Positions 19,308 to 21,560 of a DNA stretch of 64,000 bases are shown here, one piece after another. Made by a program: the position numbers and the translations under genes. Within the stretch, counting starts at the first letter, position 1; every line of letters starts with the position of its first letter. The stretch comes from Flavobacteriales bacterium (GTDB lineage Bacteria; Bacteroidota; Bacteroidia; Flavobacteriales_D; Sanyastnellaceae): NCBI GenBank assembly GCA_018402085.1, contig JAGYJM010000002.1, forward strand, positions 3,115,501-3,179,500, read 5' to 3'. The notes under the pieces were generated by a model. The model was not told the origin of the DNA. It saw only the letters and a program-made list of their open reading frames with translations, and did not search any database.

Positions 19308-20537
19308 TCAACGCTCAATCGAGAAGCTGCCCAGCCTAAAGTAAAAGCGCTTGTTATCGCGCCCCTTTGGCGCCAGTGCTACTTGTCCGTCAGTCTTCTC
19401 TTCCAGACGCATCGCAAACGCTTCACCAAACGATTCGCCCTCTTTTTGCGGTCGTCCGAGCACCTCTTCTTTCGCGCGATTGAGCAAATAGGCCTGCCAA
19501 TCTGAGCGTTCAGGCAATTCAAGCGCCGGTTCATGCGGAGGCACCTGCGGCATTTCAACAGCGAGTAAAGTTTGCGCAGGTATTGCAAGCGCACGTTCAT
19601 CAGTGGCTTTTTCTCGGCGCAAAAGCGCCGGATGGCGATGTGTAATCGGTGACACGTTGGCGAAGCGTTCTTCCCGGGTTGGCGCTACATCTTGTGTTTC
19701 GGCGTCGCTTGGAATGTTGCCACGGTTCGGCGTGTTGTTGACTGCCCCCGCGTTTTCTCGAATGGTGTTCGCTTCTGTGTTTTCTGAATTTCCTGTTTCA
19801 ACTTGCACGATGTCTGCTGCCTTACCTGGCTGTACCTGGCGCTCAACCTTCAGGTTGCGGTCAGCGGTCAGCGCTTGTTGTGCAGACTGAGACGAATTGT
19901 TCGTCAACCACCACGCGGCCAGAATTGCAAGTCCGATGGCCGCCACTGCAGCGGCGCGTGCTGCAAACTGACGGTACAACGGCACCACGGGCGCCGCCTT
20001 CTTCAGCCCCTCCTTATGCGGATACGTTACAGCATCCGGCTGCATGCGCAGTTTGCGGTAGGTCTCCACCTCACGGGCGAAGTTGTCATCTTGCAGCAGC
20101 TTTGCGCTCAGCGCATTGTCGAGATCACCTTCAGCGATGACAGCAGCCAACTGTTCTGTCGACTCAATCTCTTTCGGAACGGAGAGCTCAGGTGCTTGCA
20201 CATTTCGGGCTTCAAGCTTGGTGCGCTTCATCGCTTCCCAGTGGCGGGCGTTGGCACCCCGGCTGAACTCAGGCAGTTCTTCGGTGTCGCCTTCAAGCGC
20301 CCGAGCCAGCAGCCAGTCAAGCACTTCAGGAGCAGCATCGTCAGCCTTTAGGCGTTCATGATTTACCGCAGTGAGAGCCTCCTCATCAGGAAGTGTCGCA
20401 TCAAGAAAATCGGAATCGGCCTCAAGCTCCGGATGGGCTTCGAGAAAAGCCATGAGCTCGCCACACTCCACCGCAGAAAGGCGTCCCTCGAGCAAGTCGA
20501 GGAGATAAGCTTCGTAATTGGCTTTTGTGATTTTCAT
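19308..20537 (-). CDS. Probable anti-sigma factor (single-pass membrane protein)
   Basis: A protein of 409 aa. The N-terminal cytoplasmic part (about 1-185) has an anti-sigma-like opening (ANYEAYLLDLLEGRLSAVECGELMAFLEAHP) but no zinc motif. There is one transmembrane helix (about 193-212, AVAAIGLAILAAWWLT), then a low-complexity periplasmic region rich in Asn, Glu and Arg. It overlaps the ECF sigma factor gene by 4 bases (ATGA), the standard arrangement for a sigma/anti-sigma pair. Assignment rests on this context more than on sequence. Its stop abuts the pth stop. Confidence 0.75.
   Translation of the reverse strand: MKITKANYEAYLLDLLEGRLSAVECGELMAFLEAHPELEADSDFLDATLPDEEALTAVNHERLKADDAAPEVLDWLLARALEGDTEELPEFSRGANARHWEAMKRTKLEARNVQAPELSVPKEIESTEQLAAVIAEGDLDNALSAKLLQDDNFAREVETYRKLRMQPDAVTYPHKEGLKKAAPVVPLYRQFAARAAAVAAIGLAILAAWWLTNNSSQSAQQALTADRNLKVERQVQPGKAADIVQVETGNSENTEANTIRENAGAVNNTPNRGNIPSDAETQDVAPTREERFANVSPITHRHPALLRREKATDERALAIPAQTLLAVEMPQVPPHEPALELPERSDWQAYLLNRAKEEVLGRPQKEGESFGEAFAMRLEEKTDGQVALAPKGRDNKRFYFRLGSFSIER
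19615..19635 (+). repeat. Dispersed GATGC hairpin repeat (inside the anti-sigma gene)
   Basis: CGGCGC AAAA GCGCCG GATGG: a perfect 6-bp stem with AAAA loop. The tail has G in place of the final C. Confidence 0.5.
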
Positions 20538-21067: not shown

Positions 21068-21091
21068 CAGTGTTTTTTCCGTCAGCTGTCT

Positions 21092-21182
21092 GCAGACGGC
21101 AGACAGCAGACAGCAGACAGCAGACAGCAGACAGCAGACAGCAGACAGCAGACGGCTGACGGCTGACGGCTGACGGCTGACG
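21092..21182. repeat. Heptamer tandem repeat array (GCAGACR x9, GCTGACG x4)
   Basis: Thirteen back-to-back 7-bp units: nine GCAGACA/G (21092-21154), then four GCTGACG (21155-21182). It is intergenic, between the sigma factor promoter and the terminator of the 51-aa gene. Such arrays are prone to slippage. Confidence 0.95.
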
Positions 21183-21186
21183 GCAA

Positions 21187-21218
21187 AGAAAAAGCCCCAC
21201 TCTGAGAGCGGGGCCTTT
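21187..21218 (-). terminator. Rho-independent terminator of the 51-aa gene
   Basis: Minus strand AAAGGCCCCGC pairs with GTGGGGCTTTT around a TCTCAGA loop, with a T-run. It lies about 32 bases after the small gene's stop codon. Confidence 0.85.
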
Positions 21219-21249
21219 CCAACCTTTAACCTATTTGAACCCATTCCGC

Positions 21250-21405
21250 TTAATGAGCGGAAGCAAGCTGGATGATCTGGAATCGAAGGTCATTGACCTC
21301 TTGTAATTTCGCCAGATACGCACTGATGTTCCCTTGTTGCATCAACTCGATTGCCTGGCGCTTCATTGCCTGGTATTTTTTCTTCAGTTCTCTCATGGCA
21401 TTCAT
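21250..21405 (-). CDS. Small basic helical protein of 51 aa, sigma-54-driven
   Basis: A short gene below the usual length cut-off. ATG at 21405, TAA at 21250-21252. It is Lys/Gln-rich at the N-terminus (MRELKKKYQAMKRQA) and its pattern is consistent with two amphipathic helices separated by QQGNISAY, ending QIIQLASAH. There is no signal peptide or membrane segment. Support for a real gene: a perfect sigma-54 promoter 23 bases upstream, its own terminator downstream, a clean start-stop frame and good coding character. A second in-frame ATG at 21396 could be used. I do not recognise the family. It resembles small conserved cytoplasmic helical proteins, and its sigma-54 control suggests a conditional role. 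Confidence 0.7.
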   Translation of the reverse strand: MNAMRELKKKYQAMKRQAIELMQQGNISAYLAKLQEVNDLRFQIIQLASAH

Positions 21406-21427
21406 TTTTGTTGTTCACTTTAACCTA

Positions 21428-21444
21428 AGCAAAAGGCGTGCCAA
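21428..21444 (-). promoter_or_regulatory. Sigma-54 (RpoN) promoter, perfect consensus
   Basis: Minus strand TTGGCACG-CCTT-TTGCT. The -24 GG and -12 GC are exactly 10 bases apart, matching the consensus TTGGCACGnnnnTTGCW. The predicted start of transcription is about 12 bases before the ATG at 21405. No match of this quality was noticed elsewhere in the window. Confidence 0.75.
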
Positions 21445-21448
21445 AATG

Positions 21449-21560
21449 GTCGGGAGTCGGGGGGTCGGGGGTCGGGAGAGCCCTGATATCAGGAATCGGG
21501 AGTCTAAGGGGGGGGTGGGAGAGCCCTGATGTCAAAGGGTGCGGACACTTAACGGGGTCC
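21449..21560. repeat. G-rich degenerate repeats upstream of the sigma-54 promoter
   Basis: Units of the type GTCGGGA/GTCGGGG in tandem (about 21449-21479), then the 14-base GGGAGAGCCCTGAT twice (about 21475 and 21519). A second low-complexity block on the far side of the 51-aa gene from the heptamer array. No gene lies here between nadD and the small gene. Confidence 0.75.

Follow-up and report, generated by a model that had tools for sequence, protein, structure and literature searches.

A conserved, probably sigma-54-dependent promoter upstream of a gene for a small, predicted helical protein in Flavobacteriales and Flavobacteriaceae

The window analysed here, 64,000 nucleotides of the genome of a Flavobacteriales bacterium (family Sanyastnellaceae; GCA_018402085.1, contig JAGYJM010000002.1, positions 3,115,501 to 3,179,500), carries on its minus strand a short gene with an exact −24/−12 promoter sequence in front of it. 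The explanation that covers the findings best, and that we consider probable, is a single-gene unit that would be transcribed by sigma-54 RNA polymerase and that encodes a basic 48-aa protein predicted to fold as a helical hairpin; that the promoter and the protein are real is in our judgement almost certain. The small gene keeps its own RpoN promoter despite changes of neighbourhood, and it does so in at least two orders. A promoter of a known kind is found here on a protein family without a name, and in one branch, the Flavobacteriaceae, a putative second promoter is superimposed on it, which is unusual. The 48-aa gene is a compact and testable reporter and target of the sigma-54 regulon, and the superimposed ECF-like and sigma-54 elements form a natural series for the study of switching between alternative sigma factors.

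The promoter and the gene in the window

The promoter reads TTGGCACGCCTTTTGCT on the minus strand from 21444 to 21428. It can be written as TTGGCACG-N4-TTGCT, contains TGGCAC-N5-TTGC and has the correct GG-N10-GC spacing, exactly as the original prediction, from which this analysis started, had described it. It is the sole match to the motif in the window with zero mismatches. With up to three mismatches 19 matches were observed versus 23.2 expected, which means that the looser matches are at chance level and that weight can be given only to the exact form and to its conservation. These numbers could also be taken to indicate that the promoter-like string is itself a chance match, as could the lack of a genome-wide excess of the strict pattern in two relatives (G001, 24 versus 24 in the control; G002, 24 versus 22). 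The motif, however, keeps a constant position in front of the gene across differing neighbourhoods, and this conservation across genomes leaves chance with a negligible probability; we regard it as ruled out.

The open reading frame at 21250–21405 (−) codes for 51 aa, as predicted, but the protein is probably 48 residues long. With most homologues the alignment begins at codon 2, 3 or 4 of the 51-aa frame, and their own ATG matches the second ATG of the window's gene (21396), which makes 21396 the likely start and 21250–21396 (−) the preferred extent of the gene; the three extra codons (21397–21405, −) less likely belong to it. The distance from the motif to the first ATG, given earlier as 23 bases, is actually 22, and that to the second ATG is a gap of 31 nt, near the gaps of the homologues. 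Transcription would start some 12 nt past the −12 box, which would give a leader of roughly 20 nt.

Downstream of the gene lies an intrinsic terminator hairpin with a U-rich 3′ side (21188–21220, −), and the claim that the gene has a terminator of its own is borne out by its fold (−24.8 kcal/mol, z −5.05, equalled in 0 of 200 shuffles) and by a terminator-like match; a simple terminator scan alone did no better than shuffles. The original prediction saw the unit as boxed in by two repeat arrays. Repeats are indeed present on both sides, namely a tandem CAGACAG/CGGCTGA repeat between the terminator and the downstream ECF sigma factor gene (21083–21180) and GTCGGG-rich and AGAGCCCTGAT duplications immediately 5′ of the promoter (21450–21534), but both arrays are probably incidental, because the sequence immediately before the promoter is hardly conserved at all among 29 own-order loci (at most 0.31 bits for each of the bases 4 to 20 before the box in the site-anchored profile). 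The unit of the seven-base tandem repeat at 21083–21180 switches from CAGACAG to CGGCTGA partway.

Homologues and selection on the reading frame

Homologues of the small protein were found at E 1e-3 in 36 of 100 relatives, of which 19 are among the 61 genomes of the same family and 17 among the 39 from other families of the order. The order name Flavobacteriales was not borne out, as the classification used here assigns the family of Polaribacter and Tenacibaculum, in which further homologues occur, to the same class and to a different order. The own-family genomes have a mean size of 3.33 Mb with the gene (19 genomes) and 2.34 Mb without it (42 genomes), kinship being ignored in these means. 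For 30 of the 36 matching genomes the locus itself was retrieved. A stop was flagged within the matched stretch in three of these loci: in L008 and L016 it lies just 5′ of the ATG and the frames are intact, and the translation of L026 is 46 aa long.

In a sample of the phylum 9 of 392 genomes match. Besides the own genome they comprise a second member of its family, five genomes of a family labelled f17, and two TPR-like false matches (L124, L125) that are without the promoter and were left out. We take f17 to be the Flavobacteriaceae because its member G468 shares the gene and upstream DNA with Polaribacter aquimarinus (L126, L142). In a wider f17 sample 16 of 299 genomes match, and a set of named Flavobacteriaceae was assembled from the best 80 loci listed, which are mostly from Polaribacter and Tenacibaculum but also from Lutibacter, Aureibaculum and uncultured kin. 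Among the 96 listed Flavobacteriaceae loci four pairs are identical in sequence, leaving 92 distinct ones, and many are close kin, so that the loci are not independent.

To judge from the sequences, the reading frame is under purifying selection. For example, among the eight own-order pairs compared, dN and dS are 0.03 and 1.14 (L010/L013), 0.05 and 0.96 (L015/L016), 0.16 and 1.09 (L009/L012), and 0.21 and 1.71 (L018/L021); L019/L020 has a pN of 0 and a pS of 0.22, L003/L004 shows few changes (0.04 and 0.08), L005/L006 zero changes, and in L001/L002 the synonymous sites are saturated. In 182 randomly drawn Flavobacteriaceae pairs the median dN/dS is 0.287 with a range from 0 to 1.9, the ratio being noisy because the gene is short. 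Five positions (M1, M19, G22, Y27 and L31) show no variation at all in an alignment of 25 sequences.

These findings bear on the idea that a small regulatory RNA is the main product of the locus and the peptide incidental. A short monocistronic unit with a strong terminator would suit such an RNA, and in the part of the Flavobacterium psychrophilum study considered here a putative regulatory RNA, Rfp36, stands under a sigma-54 promoter (PMC9723704). However, amino acids are kept while synonymous sites change, the length and the five invariant positions are preserved in the 25 sequences, and the interval between promoter and gene is weakly conserved, its information rising to 1.0 bit (29 loci) only in an A-rich stretch 5′ of the ATG. 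We therefore consider a mainly RNA-based function highly improbable.

Conservation of the promoter

In 29 of the 30 own-order loci a site within 200 nt upstream of the gene scores at least 10 of 12 sigma-54 consensus positions; the thirtieth locus (L028) is N-masked at the promoter and was left out of the profile. The strict pattern TTGGCAYN5TTG is present within 110 nt in 23 of the 30. In L018, L021 and L024 the −12 element is one base closer and out of register, and in L017, L023 and L030 the deviation is inside a box. In the 29 aligned loci the information peaks at the two boxes: every row has T-G-G and A in the −24 box, and in the −12 box the initial T and the G. The gap from box to start is 29–40 nt in 26 of these loci, with 49, 67 and 68 nt in the other three.

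The strict motif is likewise found upstream of 71 of the 80 named Flavobacteriaceae homologues among the matches listed, as compared with 2 matches in the 474,046 positions of the control for these loci. It is present in all five f17 loci of the phylum sample (one scores 8 and one 9 of 12), and in 12 of the 16 loci of the wider f17 sample, being absent from 4. Within 200 nt of 30 control genes, which encode DUF6435 proteins, the strict motif was not found (0/30), and only one of these genes (L241) reaches 10 of 12.

Gene neighbourhoods

As neighbours we counted the nearest open reading frames of at least 80 aa, named from Pfam. In the window the upstream neighbour encodes a nadD-type nucleotidyltransferase (PF01467; 21612–22214, −), whose cluster is upstream in 15 of the 30 own-order loci, and the downstream neighbour, past the terminator, an ECF sigma factor (PF08281, PF04542; 20534–21049, −), whose cluster is downstream in 8 of the 30. 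In three own-order loci, all of one family, the gene directly upstream on the same strand encodes an activator-like protein, EBP-A, which is dealt with below. In Flavobacteriaceae, among the matches listed, the small gene is accompanied by a convergent seryl-tRNA synthetase gene (serS) in 93 of 96 loci and by a divergently oriented TPR gene in 92. Promoter and gene are kept in three different gene neighbourhoods, and since the neighbours vary by lineage, the promoter does not owe its conservation to a single conserved operon.

Downstream of the ECF sigma factor gene the window contains, at 19308–20537, the gene for a 409-aa protein without any Pfam match, which is possibly the anti-sigma partner of the ECF sigma factor.

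RpoN, candidate activators and the search for an enhancer

The gene for sigma-54, rpoN, is present in 98 of 100 relatives, the own genome included, and the own genome has 11 matches to the activator domain PF00158, four of which are strong. The prediction that RpoN controls a small monocistronic gene has good support from the sequence: the promoter and the reading frame are both conserved in relatives, and rpoN is found together with four strong activator-type proteins. The 48-residue protein is very probably made under RpoN control.

The activator would be either EBP-A or a Fis-type protein (L036), whose gene in the own genome sits between a miaB-type gene and the lptE gene. EBP-A (L035 and its relatives L018, L021, L022 and L252–L256) is a widespread REC-AAA+ protein resembling sigma-54 activators. 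At E 1e-60 an EBP-A query finds matches in 98 of 100 relatives, some of these being paralogues of about 40% identity, and at least 91 of 100 have a match of at least 61% identity. Presence and absence could not be used to choose the activator, as EBP-A-like matches are found nearly everywhere and those of the L038 type only sporadically. Twelve genomes, nine of them carrying the small gene and three lacking it, were checked for activators: ten have two, G003 has three, and G067 has EBP-A alone; since G067 is in about 280 contigs, a second activator may be missing from the assembly.

In 14 relatives the box follows the nadD stop after 16–74 nt; in the window the distance is 168 nt. The short interval leaves little room for an enhancer, though one inside nadD is possible. 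A convincing shared enhancer site was not found upstream; the best common 7-mers occur in 7 loci, letter shuffles reach 6, and the 7-mers are read as the coding end of nadD. EBP-A is favoured as activator because its gene is directly upstream in the three loci of one family and because no common enhancer is visible.

Some sigma-54 activators, such as FlgR and CtcC, are known to lack a DNA-binding domain. EBP-A is like them in that it consists of REC and AAA+ domains, an HTH not being found; it differs from them in its origin in another phylum and in its contact loop. The motif of the loop with which activators contact sigma-54 is GAFTGA. In ten EBP-A loci from eight genomes it is GAFTSA instead, and in the ninth genome (locus L259) no GAFT was found. 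It should therefore be considered that EBP-A may not act on sigma-54.

The small protein could also be thought of as a feedback regulator that would bind the AAA+ ring of EBP-A and so damp the activator, in the manner of PspA and PspF, a known case of feedback on a sigma-54 activator. The likeness is that an AAA+ activator could be the target of a helical protein whose gene has a sigma-54 promoter; the difference is that the protein here has only 48 aa and that the link is adjacency in one family. The location of the gene directly behind EBP-A, in the same orientation, in three loci of that family, the small helical hairpin of the model, and the retention of its own promoter in differing contexts would fit this role, but EBP-A-like matches occur in at least 91 of 100 relatives and the small gene in 36 of 100, and we find the feedback role unlikely.

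An overlapping ECF-like element in Flavobacteriaceae

Promoters of ECF sigma factors typically have an AAC-type −35 and a GTC-type −10 element at a fixed spacing. Elements of this kind were found at fixed spacing in the Flavobacteriaceae loci only, where TGTWAC-N17-GTC, within which the sigma-54 box mostly lies, is present in 60 of the 80 named loci among the matches listed and in 11 of 16 others; one locus also matches at spacer 13. In the own-order loci the pattern is absent (0/30), and in two controls it has 2 matches in 238,623 nt and 0 in 48,871 nt. Several Tenacibaculum loci are one base off TGTWAC. In L138, L140, L210 and L221 the spacers are strongly divergent while both boxes and their distance are constant, which argues for function. 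In F. psychrophilum, as far as the ECF promoters (SM6) are described in the portion of the report drawn on here, they have a CGT box (PMC9723704), which is unlike the letters GTC, so that we assign the element to an ECF factor with reserve. If the assignment is right, a second promoter would overlap the sigma-54 promoter, and the small gene of Flavobacteriaceae would answer to two alternative sigma factors.

Among the 96 listed Flavobacteriaceae loci both elements are present in 60, the sigma-54 box only in 23, the ECF-like element only in 11, and neither in 2. All 13 of these loci without a strict sigma-54 box retain the serS and TPR neighbours, which means that the locus is the same; L152 and L163 are near-misses to the box. 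On a quick serS tree of 92 rows, with states taken from the strict patterns and the direction of change left aside, the sigma-54 state needs a minimum of 6 changes, reduced to 4 when L152 and L163 are counted as present or omitted, and the ECF-like state has 9. At this one syntenic locus each of the two elements thus appears to have been independently gained or lost several times.

A comparable case is rhlG of Pseudomonas aeruginosa, which, in the part of the study consulted, has promoters for sigma-70, for sigma-54 and for the ECF factor AlgU (PMC4074388). It resembles the Flavobacteriaceae gene in that one gene is under both sigma-54 and an ECF factor, but its AlgU start (−113) and sigma-54 start (−65) are separate, whereas the elements in Flavobacteriaceae are superimposed. 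One could go further and suppose that in Flavobacteriaceae the sigma-54 promoter lies in the spacer of an ECF promoter, that either was repeatedly dropped, and that the 48-aa hairpin links both stress systems via EBP-A; we consider this combined view quite unlikely.

The protein and its relation to DUF6435

By hand count the product has 8 K/R versus 4 D/E, and the AlphaFold2 model consists of two helices (residues 2–21 and 24–47; mean pLDDT 95.1), in agreement with the basic helical protein that had been expected. A sequence search of solved structures gave one match at E 0.71, and a fold search gave 52 matches, none at or below E 0.001, which are generic hairpins (best E 1.4). The 48-aa protein is over none of the family cut-offs searched; NCBIfam gave nothing at E 1, and PHROGs and PADLOC nothing at E 0.1. 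A phage or plasmid gene was also considered and rejected, as tblastn gave no match at E 0.01 in either collection.

One family considered was DUF6435 (PF20027), likewise of short proteins, and the small protein would have an ordinary housekeeping role if it were a true member. There is a weak Pfam match (E 6.6e-4, 20.1 bits with 51 aa), and of 25 members of the small protein's own family 6 reach E 0.01 or better against DUF6435. However, 20.1 bits, and 19.4 bits with 48 aa, are both below the curated cut-off of 26.9 bits, a profile-profile comparison (25 versus 13 sequences) gave a probability of 1.3% at E 0.042, and the start MFxxFKK, typical of most DUF6435 sequences, is lacking. Moreover, the own genome has a separate DUF6435 gene that is over the cut-off, and the DUF6435 genes are without the strict promoter, as mentioned above. 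With none of these features in its favour, membership was rejected; we hold it to be most improbable. A search of the literature for DUF6435 or Lacal_2735 found neither in any of the papers covered, and one for sigma54, small protein and Flavobacteriia in combination found none, which is not proof of absence in print.

The sigma-54 regulon and a possible role in stress

To our knowledge, little is known of sigma-54 regulons in Bacteroidota. The strict pattern is found 60 times in the own genome versus 19 times in the reversed control, the 60 being inflated by repeats, and 36 versus 20 times in G003. TTGGCAC is present at 23 of the 60 sites, of which 20 were fetched. Genes preceded by such sites include those for Lon, a Skp-like (OmpH) protein, a Band 7 protein, TPR and DUF4476 proteins and three small HTH proteins; several sites fall inside genes, and that before the Skp-like gene is within an open frame of 2025 nt.

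In F. psychrophilum the sigma-54 promoters given in the part of the report used here (SM4) precede groES-groEL, lon, dnaK, grpE-dnaJ, htpG, skp and clpB (PMC9723704). The two organisms belong to the same phylum and both have −24/−12 promoters; the Lon and Skp genes listed there have counterparts here that are likewise preceded by the motif. In the selection of promoters as printed, the small gene was not identified, some entries being given as "protein of unknown function" (PMC9723704).

The small protein may, tentatively, belong to the sigma-54 regulon as a stress effector or adaptor, and would then be made together with the proteins for protein quality control and the envelope. This guess was made because of the association with the regulon alone, that is, the chaperones and proteases of F. 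psychrophilum and the Lon and Skp-like sites found here. The original prediction of a conditionally made regulator or stress factor appears plausible.

Some further sites were observed. In the own genome, two similar genes (L087 and L091; G000:C2:1642532 and 2054365) each have a sigma-54-like site about 95 nt upstream; one of the products was scanned and had no Pfam match over cut-off. Three HTH genes of about 70 aa (L079, L086 and L093; PF01381; G000:C2:1022, 1603456 and 2620713) have TTGGCACN5TTG 27–36 nt before the ATG. In three genomes, genes for secreted DUF4476-type proteins (L089, L101 and L112, the latter two assigned by eye) have sigma-54-like sites 44–49 nt upstream, and in two of these genomes, about 4 kb away, so do the genes for the lipoprotein-like L102 and L111.
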